Assembly (NCBI GenBank): GCA_902610905.1
Contig: CACLXS010000005.1
Span: forward strand, 1 to 57,526
Direction of reading: 5' to 3'
Length of the DNA: 57,526 nucleotides
Source: an uncultured SAR86 cluster bacterium
GTDB lineage: Bacteria > Pseudomonadota > Gammaproteobacteria > Magnimaribacterales > D2472
The notes under the pieces: model-generated
What the model saw: only the letters and a program-made list of their open reading frames with translations
Told to the model about the DNA's origin: nothing
Databases searched by the model: none
Shown: positions 44,477 through 53,785 of the stretch, one piece after another
Numbering within the stretch: the first letter of the stretch is position 1
Layout: each line of letters opens with the position of its first letter
Position numbers and translations under genes: made by a program

Positions 44477-45368
44477 TAATAATATTTTGAACTACTTCCT
44501 CGTATTCCAATCCAAGAAAGCTTCCTGATTTTGGAACACAACTGTGTGATGTCATTCCTGGAACGGTATTAATTTCAAGAACATGAAATTGGCCTGTGAT
44601 GTCTTGAAGAATATCAATCCTTGCCCATCCTCTGCAGTTAAGAGCTTTATATGCATTAGAAGCAACCACGTTTATAGATGAGTGTTCCTCAGAAGTAAGA
44701 TAAGCTTCAATAAGCCCTGTATTATTTGAGATATATTTTGCATCATAATCATAAAACTCATTCTCAGTTACTATTTCTATTACCGGCATACATTCATCAT
44801 TGATAATTGTCACAGTAAACTCTTTTCCATCTATACAGTTTTCCATTAAAAATGGTCTATCTATATTGTTTGCATTATTAAGAGCAGCCATAAAATCTTT
44901 ATCGTCTTTTATCTTAAAAATATCAACGCTTGAACCTTCTTGACTTGGTTTTAAAAAATAATTTTTATTTTGAAAATCTTTGAAAGGTTCATTTAAAAAT
45001 GGTTTTAAAGTCTCATAATATTTCCATGATGGAGTTATAACATTATGAGATTTTAAAATTGTTTTACATGTATTTTTATCCCATGTATTTCTACAAGCCT
45101 CTGGCCCTGATCCAGTATAAGGTATAGATAAATCATCAAATTTTTCTTGAAGATTACCTCCTTCACCCTCAAATCCATGCAATGCTATAAAAATAAGATC
45201 ATATGTTTTAAAAATATTAAGATCACTAATAGTTTTAAAATCTACAATAGTTGTTTCGTATCCTAATTTTTTCAGGGCATCATAGACTCCCTTACCACTT
45301 TGCAAAGATATCTCTCTTTCTGATGACGAACCGCCACATATAACAATAATTTTTTTTATTTCTTCCAT
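44463..45368 (-). CDS. ddl: D-alanine--D-alanine ligase
   Basis: 301-residue ATP-grasp ligase. VICGGSSSEREISLQSG, FIALHGFEGEGGNLQ, PYTGSGPEACRNTWDKNTCK, LKPSQEGSSVDIFKI and EINTVPGMTSHS are diagnostic. The ATG at 45368 is preferred; an ATG at 45389 would add seven residues and a longer overlap with murC. It overlaps ftsQ by 14 nt. It uses D-Ala from Alr and supplies MurF. Confidence 0.97.
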   Translation of the reverse strand: MEEIKKIIVICGGSSSEREISLQSGKGVYDALKKLGYETTIVDFKTISDLNIFKTYDLIFIALHGFEGEGGNLQEKFDDLSIPYTGSGPEACRNTWDKNTCKTILKSHNVITPSWKYYETLKPFLNEPFKDFQNKNYFLKPSQEGSSVDIFKIKDDKDFMAALNNANNIDRPFLMENCIDGKEFTVTIINDECMPVIEIVTENEFYDYDAKYISNNTGLIEAYLTSEEHSSINVVASNAYKALNCRGWARIDILQDITGQFHVLEINTVPGMTSHSCVPKSGSFLGLEYEEVVQNIINAKL

Positions 45369-46750
45369 GTTTCTTTTATTAATTCGCATACGCTTGAAAC
45401 ACTGCCTGCTCCTTGGGTAATAAGAACATCGAAACTATTTTCTTTTGATTGAATAAGTTTAATTACATCATTATGTTTTTTGATATACGAAACATCTTTA
45501 TGTCCGTTTTGTTTAAGTGTTTCAACAATGGTTCTTGAATCAATGCCTTTGATAGGATTTTCACTTGCAGCATAAATATCCAGCATTATCAATGAATCAA
45601 CTTTTTTAAGAACTTGAATAAAATCATCGAATAATTGTGCTGTTCTTGAAAATCGATGAGGTTGAAATATCATACATATCTTTTTTCTAGGAAATTCCTC
45701 TTTGCATGCTTTTATATTAGAGAGAATTTCTATTGGATGATGACCATAATCATCTATTAGAATTTTATTATTCGAATTAATTTCAATGTCTGCCTTCTCA
45801 TACCTTCTGCCAACTCCTGTAAATTCTTTAATGCCTTTTTTTATTGCATTTATAGTTAGACCTTCTTCTATACATACAGCTATAGAAGCTGTAGCGTTAT
45901 AAATATTATGAAAACCAGGCTGCCTAATGCAAAAGGCATATTTTTTACTTCTTTGATTATCCATAATCTCAAAGGTCTGAAATCCGTTTTTATAACCAGA
46001 ATTTAAAATTTGAAAATCTACATTTTTTGATTTTCCAAAAGTAATCTGTTTTCTTGAAATTCTTTTTGTAATTTTTTTTATATTTTTATCATCTCCATTA
46101 ACTATCAGATATCCATAAAAAGGCACATTCTCTGAAAATTGAATAAATGAATCTAAAAGGTTTTCAAAATTATTGTCATAGTGAATCAAATGATCATCAT
46201 CTATATTAGTTAATATTGCTGCATCTGGGATTAAATGAGTAAAAGATCCATCACTTTCATCTGCTTCTGCTATTAAATAATTTCCCATACCTAAATCAGA
46301 GTTTTCATCGGTGCTTAAAACTTTTCCTCCAACTACATATGTTGGGCTTAATTCAGCAGTATTAAAAATTTTTGCAATCATGCTTGTGGTAGTTGTTTTA
46401 CCGTGACTTCCAGCGATGGCTATGCTCTCATAACCTCTCATAATGCTGCCAAGCATTTCAGCACGAGGAATTATTGTTATACCATTCTTTATGCCTTCAA
46501 GAATTTCTGGATTTTTATTATCAATAGCAGTTGAGACTACTATTAAGTTCGCTCTTTTGATGTTTGTTTTGTTATGACCTATAAAGACTTTTGCGCCCTC
46601 TTTCTTAATTTTTTTTAGCTCATATGTATCATTAATGTCAGATCCAGATACTTTGTAGCCCTTTTTGAGAAGCAATCTTGCTATACCTATCATTCCGGCA
46701 CCGCCTATGCCTACAAAATGTATATGTTTTATTTTTTTAAAAAAATTCAT
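45356..46750 (-). CDS. murC: UDP-N-acetylmuramate--L-alanine ligase
   Basis: 464 residues adding L-Ala to UDP-MurNAc. N-terminal HFVGIGGAGMIGIA, P-loop IAGSHGKTTTTSM, EADESDGSF, NIDDDHL and DYGHHPIEI are intact. Overlaps murG by 4 nt. Length is normal (E. coli 491). Confidence 0.98.
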   Translation of the reverse strand: MNFFKKIKHIHFVGIGGAGMIGIARLLLKKGYKVSGSDINDTYELKKIKKEGAKVFIGHNKTNIKRANLIVVSTAIDNKNPEILEGIKNGITIIPRAEMLGSIMRGYESIAIAGSHGKTTTTSMIAKIFNTAELSPTYVVGGKVLSTDENSDLGMGNYLIAEADESDGSFTHLIPDAAILTNIDDDHLIHYDNNFENLLDSFIQFSENVPFYGYLIVNGDDKNIKKITKRISRKQITFGKSKNVDFQILNSGYKNGFQTFEIMDNQRSKKYAFCIRQPGFHNIYNATASIAVCIEEGLTINAIKKGIKEFTGVGRRYEKADIEINSNNKILIDDYGHHPIEILSNIKACKEEFPRKKICMIFQPHRFSRTAQLFDDFIQVLKKVDSLIMLDIYAASENPIKGIDSRTIVETLKQNGHKDVSYIKKHNDVIKLIQSKENSFDVLITQGAGSVSSVCELIKETWKK

Positions 46751-47800: not shown

Positions 47801-48907
47801 TTATATTAATTTGTTTTCATTATTTATTCTTATAACTATTGCTATAAGGGACATCATAATAATAATACTAGTTCCGCCGTAACTAATAAATGGAAGCGTA
47901 AGTCCTTTTGTTGGAAGCAAACCAATATTCACTGCCATGTTAAACAGAGCTTGAACTGCTATCAAAACCATAATTCCAAAAGAAACATACCCTTGAAATA
48001 GCCTGTCTTTAATAAAAGAATCAAGGGCTACTCTAAGAATACCAATAAACATAACAACAAACAGTGCAATCAAAACCAATCCACCAACTATTCCAAGCTC
48101 TTCAACAAGAATTGCAAAAATAAAATCTGTATGAGCTTCTGGTAAAAAAAAGTTCTTTTGAAAACTATTACCAATGCCTAAGCCAAACCACCCTCCTTGA
48201 CCAATGCTTATTAATGAATTTGAAAGTTGCCAACCAGCATTCCTAACAACATCCTCTGCAAAAGGATCAGTGAAAGCAAGAACTCTAGCCAGTCTCATGG
48301 GTGAGCTTGAAATCGCTAAATATCCCAATAATGATATTAAAATTGATAATAAACTGAACTGAAAAAAAGATATTCCTGCATAAAATAATATTGAAACAAC
48401 AAGCAAGCATATTATTGCTGTAGATCCAAGATCAGGCTGACCCATTATTAATAATGAAATAATAAAAAGAAGGAACAAAGGTTTCAGAAAACTTCTTAGA
48501 GTATTAATTTCAGACATTCTTCTAACCGAATAACCAGATATATATAAAATTAAGCTAAATTTACAAACTTCTGACGGCTGAATGTTTATTGGTCCTAATC
48601 TTATCCATCTAATGCTCCCATTTACTGAAGTACCTATATCTGGAATAAATAAAGCAATTAACAAAAGAATACTTATAAGCATAAACACCCAATCAGATTT
48701 AAATAAAAAATCAGAGGGCAGTAGCAAAAAAATGCTCATTGCAAGTAATCCAACTGAAATGAATATTAGCTGTCTACTAGCAAAATAAAATGGGTCTCCT
48801 GTCATCTCATCAGCAACATAAATACTAGATGAAGCAACCATAATAAACCCAAGGCTCATTATGCTTATAAATGAAAATAAAATTAAAAAATTGTTTGTTC
48901 TATTCAT
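47801..48907 (-). CDS. ftsW: Septal peptidoglycan glycosyltransferase FtsW
   Basis: 368-residue SEDS protein with about ten membrane helices. SSSIYVADEMTGDPFYFASRQ, GSIRWIRLGPINIQPSEVCKFSLILY, MGQPDLGSTAI, PEAHTDFIFAILVEELGIVGG and LPFISYGGTSIIIMM are signatures; the catalytic Asp of the SEDS fold lies in the PEAHTDF loop region. It polymerises lipid II at the septum with FtsI. It overlaps murD by 8 nt. Confidence 0.96.
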   Translation of the reverse strand: MNRTNNFLILFSFISIMSLGFIMVASSSIYVADEMTGDPFYFASRQLIFISVGLLAMSIFLLLPSDFLFKSDWVFMLISILLLIALFIPDIGTSVNGSIRWIRLGPINIQPSEVCKFSLILYISGYSVRRMSEINTLRSFLKPLFLLFIISLLIMGQPDLGSTAIICLLVVSILFYAGISFFQFSLLSILISLLGYLAISSSPMRLARVLAFTDPFAEDVVRNAGWQLSNSLISIGQGGWFGLGIGNSFQKNFFLPEAHTDFIFAILVEELGIVGGLVLIALFVVMFIGILRVALDSFIKDRLFQGYVSFGIMVLIAVQALFNMAVNIGLLPTKGLTLPFISYGGTSIIIMMSLIAIVIRINNENKLI

Positions 48908-49925
48908 CTTGGTTTAAACAAGAATTGAAATGCTCTCCCCTAATCTCAAAATTCTTATAATCCTTACCACTTGGATATCCAGGTGAAAATAAAATATTCT
49001 TTTTATTTGAATCTTTTAGATATGAAATAATATCTTCAAGTGTGTTAAATAATTTTTTGTTATTGTTATCTAAACATGCGTCAATTTCTTTTTTGTGCTC
49101 CCCATAAACTAAAATTTCTTCAGGTCCATTAATCTTAAGAGATTTATGATTTTCCTTTACTGGATCACCACAAACAATTAATACAAAATCTCTCAAACCA
49201 AAAAACTTTATAGCATTTTCAAGAGCAAAGAAGAGCGAGTTAGAGTTGGTTGATTTTGAGTCATTAATGACCGATGGAGTAATTTTTTCAAACCTATAAG
49301 GAAGGTTTTTTAGATCTAATTTTTTTGATTCTTTACCTGTTATCCACTTGAAGAGTTTGTATGGATTATTTTCATTGGAGAAATTTTTTGAACATTTAAT
49401 TTTTTCTTTAGCACTTTTGTAATCTTCAAAAGACCCATGATAATCTAAATGATCTGGTGCTATATTTAAAAGGATTCCATAATCTAAATCATTAAAATTC
49501 ATCTTATCTAATTGAAAACTGGATAACTCTATAATTGAATATGTTTTATTATTATTAATAACATCTAGCATTGGATTACCGATATTACCAACAAGATTAA
49601 CTGTATCTATTTCTTTAATAAGTTGTTCTAAATGAAAGCAAGTTGTGCTTTTTCTGTTTGTTCCAGTGATACCTATTTTTATTGAGTTATCTTCTTTAAA
49701 AAAAATATCGAGATCTGTAACAACCTCAGCGTGTTGTCTAAGTGATTCATATAAATCTTTTGGAATTCCAGGACTGCAAAATATAGTTTTATAATCAGAG
49801 AGATTATTCTTTTTATTATGCTGATCTATATTTTCATCAAAAATATCAAAAGGGATATTTCTATTAGTTAAATATCTTTCGAAAGATTTTCCGGTAACCC
49901 CATAGCCATATATCAAAGATTTCAT
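48900..49925 (-). CDS. murD: UDP-N-acetylmuramoyl-L-alanine--D-glutamate ligase MurD, internally shortened
   Basis: 341 residues against about 440 in E. coli. Present: N-terminal Rossmann-like domain (GYGVTGKSFERYL, CSPGIP), P-loop TGTNRKSTT (Arg91 in place of the usual Gly), Glu133 (IELSSFQLD), His159 (APDHLDYHG), Lys173 of SAKEKI (the carbamylated Lys198 in E. coli), LPYRFE (Arg211), NDSKSTN, and C-terminal FSPGYPSGKDYKNFEIRGEHF. The distance from the DH histidine to the RFE arginine is 52 residues here against about 119 in E. coli, so about 65 residues of the central domain, including the NADD and GxHNxxN regions, are gone. The frame is open throughout. Confidence 0.93.
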   Translation of the reverse strand: MKSLIYGYGVTGKSFERYLTNRNIPFDIFDENIDQHNKKNNLSDYKTIFCSPGIPKDLYESLRQHAEVVTDLDIFFKEDNSIKIGITGTNRKSTTCFHLEQLIKEIDTVNLVGNIGNPMLDVINNNKTYSIIELSSFQLDKMNFNDLDYGILLNIAPDHLDYHGSFEDYKSAKEKIKCSKNFSNENNPYKLFKWITGKESKKLDLKNLPYRFEKITPSVINDSKSTNSNSLFFALENAIKFFGLRDFVLIVCGDPVKENHKSLKINGPEEILVYGEHKKEIDACLDNNNKKLFNTLEDIISYLKDSNKKNILFSPGYPSGKDYKNFEIRGEHFNSCLNQDE

Positions 49926-49934
49926 TCCTTAAAT

Positions 49935-51020
49935 TTATCGAAGTTTTAATGTAGCTAATGCTATTAAAATTAGAACTAATGTAACTATCCAAAACCTAAC
50001 GATGATTTTAGGTTCTGGCCAACCTTTTAATTCATAGTGGTGATGGATAGGCGCCATTAAAAATACTCTTTTTCCTCGAGTCTTATAGGAAATAACCTGA
50101 ATTGCAACACTTAAGGTTTCTATTACAAATACGCCTGCCATGATTGCAAAAACTAGCTCATGTCTTAAAATCACCGCCAGTATTCCTAATATTGCTCCTA
50201 AAGTTAGCGATCCAATATCTCCCATAAAAATTTGAGCAGGATACGTGTTATACCAAAGAAAACCAATACCAGAACCAATAAGTGCTCCGCAAAAGACTAT
50301 TAACTCTCCTGATAATTTTAGGTGAGGTAAATACAGATAATCAGCAATAATTTGGTTACCCATACTATAGGCAATAAGTCCAAGAGCTCCTGCAATAAGA
50401 ACAGATGGCAATATAGCAAGACCATCAAGACCATCTGTCAAATTTACAGCATTAGATGATCCAATTAAAACAAACATTCCAGTTGATATGAATACAAAGG
50501 CACTCATAGGAATTATTAGATCTTTAAAGAAAGGAACAATAAATGAAGTTTCAGCAATCAATTCAGCAGAATGGTATAAGTAATACATAGCTATAAATGA
50601 AGCAATAATTTGTAAGAATATTTTCTGCTTAGAATTAAGTCCATCTGAACTTTTATTTTTTATTTTTAAGTAGTCATCAGAGAATCCAATTAAAGCAAAG
50701 GCGATAGTTGTGAAAAGAACAACCCAAATATATCTGTTGCCTAAGTCGGCCCATAGTAATGTCGAAATCACTAACGACGATAATATTAAAAGCCCACCCA
50801 TAGTTGGTGTTCCTGATTTTTTATAATGAGATTCTGGTCCATCAACTCTAACATGCTGCTCAAACTGCATAGACTTGAGAGACTTTATTAATATTGGGCC
50901 TAATAAAATAGATATTAATAGTCCAGTTACTGTACCGCCCAAGGTTCTTACAGTTAAATAGCGTAAAACATCAAAACCTGGATCTATGTCTACAAGAATA
51001 GTGCCTAAATATTCAAACAT
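49935..51020 (-). CDS. mraY: Phospho-N-acetylmuramoyl-pentapeptide transferase MraY
   Basis: 361 residues, about ten membrane helices, making lipid I from UDP-MurNAc-pentapeptide and undecaprenyl phosphate. KSGTPTMGGLLIL, the Asp-rich FSDDYLKI, NAVNLTDGLDGLAI, FMGDIGSLTLG and APIHHHYELKGWPE are diagnostic and intact. It overlaps murF by 8 nt. Confidence 0.98.
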   Translation of the reverse strand: MFEYLGTILVDIDPGFDVLRYLTVRTLGGTVTGLLISILLGPILIKSLKSMQFEQHVRVDGPESHYKKSGTPTMGGLLILSSLVISTLLWADLGNRYIWVVLFTTIAFALIGFSDDYLKIKNKSSDGLNSKQKIFLQIIASFIAMYYLYHSAELIAETSFIVPFFKDLIIPMSAFVFISTGMFVLIGSSNAVNLTDGLDGLAILPSVLIAGALGLIAYSMGNQIIADYLYLPHLKLSGELIVFCGALIGSGIGFLWYNTYPAQIFMGDIGSLTLGAILGILAVILRHELVFAIMAGVFVIETLSVAIQVISYKTRGKRVFLMAPIHHHYELKGWPEPKIIVRFWIVTLVLILIALATLKLR

Positions 51021-52347
51021 TTATAAATCTCTCCATTTTCATTCCCCTAGAGCCTTTAATCAGAACTATGTCTCCACCTTTAATGTTTTCTTTTATAAAT
51101 TTTTTAATATCATTTTCATTATTAAAAAATAATCCATTTTTACCATATCCAGATACAGCATATTTTGTTAATTCTCCAAAACCAAGAAAAACATCTACTT
51201 TTTTTCTTCTTGCATACTGTCCAACATCAGCATGCATCTTTTTTCTATATCTTCCCAATTCAAGCATGTCACCCATAATGAACACTTTCCGCTTGTTTGA
51301 ATTTGATATGAAATCAATAGCTTTTTTTACAGATTCTGGATTCGCATTATAAGTATCATCAATGAGTAAGGATCCTTTTATCCATTTCTTTTGCTTTTGT
51401 CTTACTTGAGCACCCTTTTCTAATCTTTGATTAAATAATTTTGGTGAGTTTTCAATTAAATATGACACGGCAAATGCTGCAAGAATATTTTTAATGTTAT
51501 GAACTCCAGACAATGAAGTTTTGATTTTATGATCTATATTATATTTATCTGAAATAATATTAAATTCTTGTTTTTTGATTGAGGATTTTATATTTATTGC
51601 ATAAAAATCAGCATTTTGTTCAATACCAAATGTGATCAATTCTTTTCCTCTAATTATTTTTTTCCAGAATTTTAGGTGTTCCTCGTTTTCATTTGGAACT
51701 ACTAAGTAACCATCTTTTTTTATGTTTGAGACTAACTCAGATTTAACTTTTAAGACTCCTTTTATATTTTTGAGTTTTTCTAAATGAGAGTTACCAATAT
51801 TTGTAATTACTCCAATATTTGGTTTTAAAATTGAACTCAAATATTTTATGTCTCCAGGTTTTGCTGCACCCATCTCAATTACTAAATTCTTTGAGTTTTG
51901 TTTTGCGTTAAAAATACTTAAAGGCATTCCAATTTCATTATTATAATTTTTTAAAGTTGATGAGCTTTTTGATAAAACATTTGCAATAATTTTAGTTGTT
52001 GTTGTTTTCCCATTGCTTCCTGTTATGCCTACAACATTTCCGTCAAAAGATTTAAGAATATTGCTTGCAATGTTTTTAAGAGCAGAAATGGAATTATTGA
52101 CATAGATTATGTTTTTATTCTTGCAAGTTTTATATTTCTCACTGTCAGTTATTACAAGACATGCTCCTTTATGAATTGCTTCATCAACATAATCACTACC
52201 ATTAAAATTTTCTCCATTTATACCAATAAATAGCGAGTGTTTTTTGATAGTTCTAGAATCAATAGAAATATCTTTTATCTGTATATTCTTTTTAATGGGA
52301 GTATCTAAATATGTAGATAAGTCATTTGAGTTAGTTATAAATTTCAT
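51013..52347 (-). CDS. murF: UDP-N-acetylmuramoyl-tripeptide--D-alanyl-D-alanine ligase
   Basis: 444 residues adding D-Ala-D-Ala. DSRTIKKHSLFIGINGENFNG, P-loop GITGSNGKTTTTKI, EMGAAKPGDI, NIGNSHLE, SGVHNIKNILAAFAV (the GxHNxxN motif that MurD lacks) and LIDDTYNANPESV are present. It overlaps murE by 17 nt. Length is close to E. coli MurF (452). Confidence 0.97.
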   Translation of the reverse strand: MKFITNSNDLSTYLDTPIKKNIQIKDISIDSRTIKKHSLFIGINGENFNGSDYVDEAIHKGACLVITDSEKYKTCKNKNIIYVNNSISALKNIASNILKSFDGNVVGITGSNGKTTTTKIIANVLSKSSSTLKNYNNEIGMPLSIFNAKQNSKNLVIEMGAAKPGDIKYLSSILKPNIGVITNIGNSHLEKLKNIKGVLKVKSELVSNIKKDGYLVVPNENEEHLKFWKKIIRGKELITFGIEQNADFYAINIKSSIKKQEFNIISDKYNIDHKIKTSLSGVHNIKNILAAFAVSYLIENSPKLFNQRLEKGAQVRQKQKKWIKGSLLIDDTYNANPESVKKAIDFISNSNKRKVFIMGDMLELGRYRKKMHADVGQYARRKKVDVFLGFGELTKYAVSGYGKNGLFFNNENDIKKFIKENIKGGDIVLIKGSRGMKMERFINV

Positions 52348-53785
52348 TCACTACCTCATGATCGCTAAAAAATAGTATCTGACCATCTTTTTCTTGTGTC
52401 TCTTCATGCCCTTTACCCAAAATAACCAAACAATCCTCTTTTTCAATTAAATTTGTTCCATGAATAATAGCTGCTTTTCTATCTTCAATTACATCAATTT
52501 TGCTTTTACTGTTATTGTTTGCAATGGTGTCAGACAAAATTTCACTAAATTCTTCATTTCTAGAATTGTCAGATGTAAATATTACCTTGTCAGCATATTT
52601 CAAAGCAGCATTAAGCATTAATGGTCTTTTTGTTCTATCTCTATTACCTCCACAACCAAAAACGACAACCAAATTATCAAAAAAATCTTGCAATGATGAT
52701 AGGAATAAAAGAAACCCTTCTGGATTATGCGCATAATCAATAATTATATTTGCAGGAATATCTTTTATAAAATCGCTCCTGCCTTTAGGAAGTTTTAGAA
52801 AGTCCAATTTATTGATCTTATTTTTTTCAAAGTATGATAAACCAGCAGAACAAATGGCAAAAATTAAATTAACTATATTAAACTTTGGAAAAATAGATGT
52901 CTCAAATTCATATATTGAAGAACCTTTTTCATTCTTATGAATTATTTTGAATAATGATTTTTTGAAAGAGCATTCAAGAATTTCATAATATATATCAGTA
53001 GAAGGGTTATTGGAAACTCTTATTAGTGAGTTATCTTCAATGAATATATCAGGGTTCTCATTTAAAATTTTTTGGTTGATAAATTTACTTTCAGATTCAG
53101 TACTAAAAATTTTTAATTTACTTTGAGCATAGTTTTCAATGTTTTTATGGTAATCAAGATGATCAGATCCAATATTTAATATAGATGAAGATTTAAAATA
53201 CTTGATATTCTCTAACCTATTTTGATCCAACGCATGTGAGGATATTTCAATACAAACTGCGATATTATTTTTTATTTTATAAAAATTAAATATTTCAAAT
53301 AATTCAAAAATATCAGGCGTTGTTTTATTTGTTATAGATTGATCTAATGGATTGGTATTATATTGAGTTCCGATAGTACCTATATATATCGAACTTAAAC
53401 CTTTTTTTGTAAGTAATTGATGGCATAGGTATGCTGACGTTGTTTTGCCATTTGTTCCTGTAAATGCAAAGTAGTTATGACTATTGAAATTGCTAATTTT
53501 ATAGAAAGCTTCTAGAGCTTTAAAAATCTTCTTACTACCAATAGATTGAAGATCTTTTACATAAATAATATTTTCATTTGATGAACAAAAATTTTTATCG
53601 TTGTGGATAGCTAATTTTGCTCCTTTTTCAAAAGCTTCCTCTATATATTTGCTTCCATGATTTTGTGTTCCTTTTAAAGCAAAAAAGAGAGAGCCCTCTT
53701 TTACTTTATCAGTTGTGTTTGTAATACTCGAAATTTCTATTTCATTAGAAAATTGAATGCCAAGTATTTGTGCTAATTTATTCAT
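52331..53785 (-). CDS. murE: UDP-MurNAc-tripeptide synthetase MurE (presumably DAP-adding)
   Basis: 484 residues adding the third amino acid. P-loop FTGTNGKTT (108-116), TTPD, EISSHALDQNR, SDHLDYHKNIENYAQSKLKIF (carbamylated Lys region) and DYAHNPEG are conserved. The meso-DAP recognition motif DNPR is DNSR (406-409): Asp, Asn and Arg kept, Pro lost. The GRxE segment is GRSD and the usual HNxxN-type motif reads KFNIVN. DAP specificity is inferred from DN-R and from dapA in the genome. It overlaps ftsI by 8 nt. Confidence 0.93.
   Translation of the reverse strand: MNKLAQILGIQFSNEIEISSITNTTDKVKEGSLFFALKGTQNHGSKYIEEAFEKGAKLAIHNDKNFCSSNENIIYVKDLQSIGSKKIFKALEAFYKISNFNSHNYFAFTGTNGKTTSAYLCHQLLTKKGLSSIYIGTIGTQYNTNPLDQSITNKTTPDIFELFEIFNFYKIKNNIAVCIEISSHALDQNRLENIKYFKSSSILNIGSDHLDYHKNIENYAQSKLKIFSTESESKFINQKILNENPDIFIEDNSLIRVSNNPSTDIYYEILECSFKKSLFKIIHKNEKGSSIYEFETSIFPKFNIVNLIFAICSAGLSYFEKNKINKLDFLKLPKGRSDFIKDIPANIIIDYAHNPEGFLLFLSSLQDFFDNLVVVFGCGGNRDRTKRPLMLNAALKYADKVIFTSDNSRNEEFSEILSDTIANNNSKSKIDVIEDRKAAIIHGTNLIEKEDCLVILGKGHEETQEKDGQILFFSDHEVVNEIYN

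Follow-up and report, generated by a model that had tools for sequence, protein, structure and literature searches.

A shortened central domain in MurD of SAR86 cluster bacteria and the probable retention of D-glutamate ligase function

Background

How much of its central domain can a Mur ligase lose and still add D-glutamate (D-Glu)? The question is raised by murD of an uncultured SAR86 cluster bacterium, located on contig CACLXS010000005.1 of assembly GCA_902610905.1, of which the whole stretch of 57,526 nt analysed here is referred to as the window. Its product measures 341 amino acids (aa) and lacks a large part of the central domain found in the reference MurD from Escherichia coli K-12 (438 aa). 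Mur ligases are essential and are studied as drug targets, and the ATP site is common to MurC through MurF. A first interpretation made from the letters of the window alone (the sequence-only reading) left two alternatives, i.e., that the enzyme works with a minimal central domain or that D-Glu is added by another protein. Judged from search listings, no description of a reduced MurD from SAR86 came up in the open-access literature.

Here, we compared the window genome, a draft of 27 contigs that is 78.6% complete, with 60 relatives from the same order (61 genomes in total, for which f and g followed by a number denote family and genus groups). MurD was matched in 58 of the 61 genomes, of which 37 encode a complete short form, one (G004) a short form cut by the contig end, and 20 a longer form. 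We conclude from the conserved residues and from a predicted structure that the sole MurD found in the window genome is very probably a D-Glu-adding Mur ligase working with a minimal central domain.

Results

The central module lost from MurD

The gene and the parts of its product that bear on this question are listed below with their positions in the window. Residues of E. coli MurD follow the published numbering, in which the initiator Met is omitted, and fractions refer to the 37 complete short forms.

48900..49925, minus strand: murD, shortened central domain, 341 aa (open reading frame, match to TIGR01087, predicted fold)
49644..49673, minus strand: P-loop GITGTNRKST, residues 85-94, with Arg91 where E. 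coli has Gly
49527..49529, minus strand: Glu133, equivalent of E. coli E157, Glu in 37/37
49449..49466, minus strand: NIAPDH, residues 154-159, with Asn154 (N178), Asp158 (D182), and His159 (H183)
49407..49409, minus strand: Lys173, position of the carbamylated lysine, E. coli K198, Lys in 37/37
49296..49406, minus strand: shortened spacer, residues 174-210, 37 aa, site of the loss, without GxHNxxN
49287..49295, minus strand: RFE, residues 211-213, Arg211 equivalent to E. coli R302, Arg in 37/37
49245..49265, minus strand: NDSKSTN, residues 221-227, equivalents of its Asn, Asp, Ser, Lys, Thr, and Asn in 37/37
49152..49169, minus strand: GDPVKE, residues 253-258, short-clade motif G[DNS]PxKE near E. 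coli K348
48966..48986, minus strand: SPGYPSG, residues 314-320, Pro318 and Gly320 at the places of E. coli A414 and L416

The motifs named in the sequence-only reading (the P-loop GTNRKST with Arg91, Glu133, the DH histidine His159, Lys173, RFE, and NDSK) were all found as claimed. Between Lys173 and Arg211 the spacer measures 37 residues, counted in alignment columns, where E. coli MurD has 103; the claimed shortening, put at about 35 versus about 98 residues, is thereby borne out with somewhat different figures. Alignment with E. coli MurD also confirmed that the NADD segment and GxHNxxN are missing, as the lost stretch spans the NADD strand, a small antiparallel sheet, and the GxHNxxN motif. 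In E. coli MurD these residues form the small sheet. The N-terminal domain of the window MurD is short of further residues as well.

All 37 short forms retain the equivalents of E. coli K115, S116, N138, E157, H183, K198, R302, D317, K319, T321, S415, and F422, twelve residues with roles in catalysis or substrate binding. Asp at the D182 position is likewise invariant, as are three residues of the short-clade motif (Pro255, Lys257, and Glu258) and the clade-specific Lys141, and the equivalents of Pro318 and Gly320 occur in 35/37 and 36/37. Position 91 is occupied by Arg in 20 short forms, Gly in 13, Lys in three, and Ala in one. Arg91 by itself appears less striking than at first sight, because the position varies in this way among the short forms and its equivalent is Ala in the solved MurD structures 7sir (Acinetobacter) and 8dp2 (Pseudomonas).

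The missing stretch probably bears on the nucleotide. According to an excerpt of PMC3060825, the adenine in Mpl is held by Asn205, His323, and Asn327, by analogy with MurC, and Lys198 of MurD is carbamoylated; an excerpt of a nuclear magnetic resonance study places the MurD adenine pocket in the central domain (PMC6522912). By position, the three Mpl residues would match N178, H267, and N271 in the E. coli enzyme, and the short MurD would then keep the first adenine residue, Asn154, without the other two. Among the short forms, Asn154, by analogy the equivalent of the adenine-contacting Asn, is kept in 36/37, the column of the GxHNxxN His (H267) is empty in 37/37, and the second Asn (N271) aligns as Asn in 1/37; the longer SAR86 forms keep the His in 11/20 and the second Asn in 19/20.

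Graded shortening across the order

The spacer forms a series, from 103 residues in E. coli and 105 in genus g10 of family f1, through 91-102 in f2, 75 in f1 genus g7, and 64-66 in f3, down to 43-46 in f4 and 37-43 in the other eight genera of f1. The three genomes in which MurD was not matched are 56, 71, and 78% complete. Across the order, the MurD model was matched at E 1e-20 in 181 of the 203 genomes searched, and its cut-off was reached in 80, with MurD lengths taken among the matches listed.

In a collection of named genomes, five of 80 loci were short, belonging to four records named SAR86 cluster bacterium and to Gammaproteobacteria bacterium TMED225. Their DH-to-NDSK distance is 63-72, whereas in those 61 of the other 75 loci that allowed a measurement it is 97-149, with 122 the next value after 97. 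GxHN was found in 64 of those 75; the pattern is narrow, a strict regular expression that misses related sequences. The remaining 11 comprise the alphaproteobacterial loci L079-L081 and L088, the last being the one with a distance of 97; L082, L106, L112, and L141, which are full length and carry a related sequence where GxHN would stand; and three partial frames (L117, L135, and L091). One further SAR86-named record, L090 (JABMOJ010000246.1, bin.250), has a MurD that is cut by a contig end but looks canonical, with GRHN and a DH-to-NDSK distance of 136; the record may be misnamed or the clade may be wider, and because of it the name SAR86 alone is no guide to the form of MurD.

A class-wide sample yielded matches to a short-form profile in 210 of 322 genomes at E 1e-22. 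Outside SAR86, four frames of less than 400 residues were seen among the matches listed (G321, G472, G271, and G256), two of which begin at a contig end. That of G321 is a real, partly reduced MurD of 373 aa with a spacer of about 66 residues, as counted by eye. This genome belongs, with G427 and G514 (loci L175-L177), to the gammaproteobacterial family f123, whose genomes measure 1.0-1.2 Mb and whose MurD has 373-414 aa, with a partial reduction in at least G321. The alphaproteobacterial MurDs of L079-L081 and L088 resemble the short form in that no GxHN was found; both in these and in family f123, with total lengths of 373-414 aa, the reduction is less advanced than in SAR86.

Fold, selection, and identity of the short enzyme

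An AlphaFold model of the window MurD, built with 28 sequences, reached a pLDDT of 94.4 and a pTM of 0.84, and the short MurD of family f4 (L078) was modelled with similar scores (pLDDT 93.1, pTM 0.87). The predicted window model shows the three-domain MurD fold, and its spacer retains a strand of three residues (181-183) and a helix (188-196). The top Foldseek match is the MurD structure 2jfh (E 9.5e-21). In VIA-align, rows 1-30 are all MurD with Z 23-30, followed by MurC at 19.4; the model aligns with 8dp2 over 340 residues (Z 30.2, root-mean-square deviation 4.7) and with 7ti7 over 341 (Z 29.6, root-mean-square deviation 5.0). Like canonical MurD (E. coli, PDB 2jfg and 5a5f), the short form has the catalytic residues and a place between mraY and ftsW, together with a predicted three-domain fold; unlike it, the short form has a spacer of 37 instead of 103 residues, no GxHNxxN, and a smaller N-terminal domain.

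The ratio of nonsynonymous to synonymous changes (dN/dS) of murD was 0.12 over 15 pairs from six close genomes, and within the gene the mean dN was 0.0056 in the kept central part versus 0.043 in the spacer. The best NCBIfam family of the protein is TIGR01087 murD, matched in two separate stretches (E 6.7e-54, 183.6 bits). A search of the 78.6%-complete window genome gave no second MurD, the other ligase matches there being MurC, MurE, MurF, and Mpl; a 430-aa ligase on contig C4, considered as a second MurD, was rejected as it scores above the Mpl cut-off and is Mpl. Of the two alternatives left by the sequence-only reading, a working enzyme with a minimal central domain is favoured because 38 of the 58 matched genomes share the short form, the gene is under purifying selection, the catalytic residues are kept, the fold is predicted with confidence, and no other MurD was found.

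Several observations pull the other way. The dN/dS of murD is higher than that of its neighbours ftsW (0.057) and mraY (0.020), and the spacer has the highest dN of the four murD regions compared. The score of 183.6 bits lies below the curated TIGR01087 cut-off of 211.95 bits, although some short-form relatives in g9 score 212.5-220.7 once their pieces are joined. The K348 column holds Lys in 20/20 longer SAR86 forms and in only 10/37 short forms. The branch to the short clade in the murD tree is long (1.05 changes per column), which makes a changed activity conceivable, and a genome at 78.6% completeness leaves room for a second ligase in the missing sequence.

D-Glu or L-Glu

The alternative that survives best, and that we nonetheless consider unlikely, is that the short MurD is a MurD2-type ligase that adds L-Glu, with the product epimerised later (MurL route). 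It draws on the absence of a found glutamate racemase: MurI (TIGR00067) was detected in 0 of 61 genomes and in none of the 31 high-quality ones. The wider Asp/Glu racemase family gave no match above the cut-off in the 61 genomes and weak partial matches in 11. The short form further shares with the MurD2 of Xanthomonas, besides being MurD-like and coming from a genome in which MurI was not found, a Pro at the A414 position (35/37; excerpt of PMC8788868), and at the K348 column Arg occurs, as in MurD2, in 2/37, both from f4. According to an excerpt of the same review, the overall alignment between the MurD2 model and E. coli MurD is good.

The residues that set specificity mostly tell against it. 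The review, as far as excerpted, reports that in MurD2 mutants the D182 and K348 positions set glutamate specificity, that D182 and K319 influence chirality, and that the double change E197D/R358K converts the L-Glu-using MurD2 into a D-Glu ligase, while P433A left its specificity unchanged (PMC8788868). MurD2 has Glu at the D182 place, where the short forms have Asp (37/37); given the E197D/R358K switch, this Asp argues for D-Glu as the substrate. The K319 equivalent is likewise kept in 37/37. At the K348 column the window MurD has not Arg but Val256, followed by Lys257, the invariant Lys of the short forms being placed one position on. Families f2 and f3, in which MurD is longer, likewise gave no MurI match. 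In the Parvularcula dcw (division and cell wall) locus L096, no obvious MurL candidate was seen by eye.

Also speaking against the L-Glu route is a gene that could supply D-Glu. In the window genome, a D-amino-acid-transaminase-like gene (L173:4059-4883, G000:C4) stands directly after a dacA-like carboxypeptidase gene. The best matches of its product are NF005209 and TIGR01121, below both cut-offs (172.6 versus 277.45 for TIGR01121), and it is a possible source of D-Glu. The gene was not found in family f4, where 8/8 genomes have a single class IV aminotransferase match, as do seven genomes outside f4; three of the f4 proteins were checked and are IlvE-like, 45-47% identical to the IlvE of the window genome. 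DapF is a further candidate source, by analogy, because the chlamydial DapF produces D-Glu (excerpt of PMC5885031).

Loss of activity, a two-part enzyme, or an artefact

That the short protein has no D-Glu ligase activity and that another protein performs the step, the second alternative of the sequence-only reading, has little to commend it in our view. The signature motif of Mur ligases is gone and the branch to the short clade is long, but the catalytic residues are invariant, the gene is under purifying selection, murD is retained between mraY and ftsW, and the search for another MurD in the incomplete genome gave none. Very improbable is a two-part ligase in which the missing module is supplied in trans. 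Nothing direct speaks for it beyond the size of the loss; there is no intervening gene on either flank, and the minimal domain is predicted with high confidence to fold alone. A split gene, with a separate small open reading frame encoding the missing segment, was ruled out as the flanks of murD leave no room for one.

The sequence-only reading had named a full-length MurD with the same flanks in sister genomes as the sign of an assembly deletion; this was looked for, and the five nearest genomes also encode a MurD of 341 aa, 94-96% identical and flanked by mraY and ftsW. An assembly collapse or frameshift artefact, for which the draft state of the window genome (27 contigs, 78.6% complete) might be invoked, has next to no probability, since a complete short form is encoded in 37 genomes, of which G018, G042, and G045 are each a single contig, and also in five named records.

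Discussion

Nucleotide binding by a minimal central domain

If the short MurD is a D-Glu ligase, the way it holds ATP would have changed. The lost module, with the antiparallel sheet and GxHNxxN, would have carried two of the three adenine-holding residues, and with these lost, ATP would be held mainly through the triphosphate, in a weakened adenine pocket. Because the residues for the triphosphate and magnesium are intact, the acyl-phosphate chemistry should be unchanged, with a weaker grip on the base. Clade-specific basic residues may compensate, i.e., Arg or Lys at position 91 (23/37), Lys141, and Lys257 (both 37/37), possibly together with Glu258 (37/37). Relaxed nucleotide use is a prediction of this scheme. 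A bolder version, that the short MurD dropped adenine recognition and uses nucleoside triphosphates nearly blind to the base, that the same change evolved again in MurF of one family, and that the adenine side of the fold is a module that can be shed, is possible but in our estimate doubtful.

A second loss of the module in MurF

The claim that the change is specific to MurD stands for the window genome, in which MurC, MurF, and Mpl (430 aa) keep GxHNxxN and MurE has FNIVN at that place, and fails across the order, where the module is missing from the MurF of f4 and, in part, from that of f3. MurF open frames measure 385-395 residues in f4 (7/8 genomes matched) and 415-423 in f3 (8/8), compared with 443-460 in f1 and f2 and 452 in E. 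coli; the f1 and f2 range sets aside G034 (423, at a contig end), G013 (two pieces), and G004 (256). When five SAR86 MurF were aligned with that of E. coli, the f4 proteins proved to lack the central module and the f3 proteins a part of it. HNxxN was present in 13 of 14 MurF from f1, f2, and three named f1-like records, with an f1 fragment in L001 left out of the count; the exception, L186 of f2, has a related sequence at that place. The motif was found in 0/5 MurF of f3 and 0/6 of f4 (loci L073, L070, L077, and L189-L196). GxHN occurs in nine of ten complete MurC, and the tenth (L152) has Tyr for His.

Two ligases of this order, MurD and MurF, have thus lost the module or had it eroded, and no loss was seen in MurC. 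The f4 and f3 MurF are alike to the short MurD in the part that is lost or partly lost, but they represent a different ligase that adds D-Ala-D-Ala. Together, the MurD and MurF of one order offer a natural series from a full to almost no adenine module, i.e., ready-made constructs with which the parts of a Mur ligase required for catalysis can be separated from those that govern nucleotide choice, and they show the extent to which an ocean bacterium with a small genome can trim an essential enzyme. In one SAR86 genome, murF lies in two frames with an internal TGA (G013:C13:29193-30438), either a sequencing error or a real break.

Evolutionary history

The trees of murD and of its neighbours disagree. 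In the murD tree, built with the spacer columns removed, 24 short rows form one clade (support 100/100) in which f4 stands beside f1 genus g3, and f1 as a single clade is rejected (approximately unbiased (AU) test, p 0.0002). The tree of mraY and ftsW places f4 outside f1 and the longer forms of g7 and g10 inside f1. On this tree the short label has to change three times, with well-supported branches calling for at least two of these changes, and a single clade of the short rows is rejected (AU p 1e-5). This conflict contradicts a history in which shortness arose once and was passed on by descent alone. Either the short murD moved in place between the SAR86 families f1 and f4, or there was convergence, with shared constraints pulling unrelated short forms together in the tree; the sequences permit no firm choice between the two because long branches are present. 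A phage origin of murD was considered as well and set aside, as no DNA match was found in a phage collection.

Genomic neighbourhood of murD

The position of murD in the dcw cluster, between mraY and ftsW, is shared by short and longer forms. In the window, the following neighbours and other Mur ligase genes were identified.

49935..51020, minus strand: mraY, upstream neighbour of murD, separated by a gap of 9 bases
47801..48907, minus strand: ftsW, downstream neighbour, overlapping murD by 8 bases
51013..52347, minus strand: murF, full length, 444 aa, GVHNIKN kept
52331..53785, minus strand: murE, full length, 484 aa, FNIVN at the GxHNxxN place
45356..46750, minus strand: murC, full length, 464 aa, GFHNIYN kept

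Both neighbours were present in 38 of 39 loci (G014 is represented twice), and the sole exception, L025, is a contig-cut copy truncated at the mraY end.
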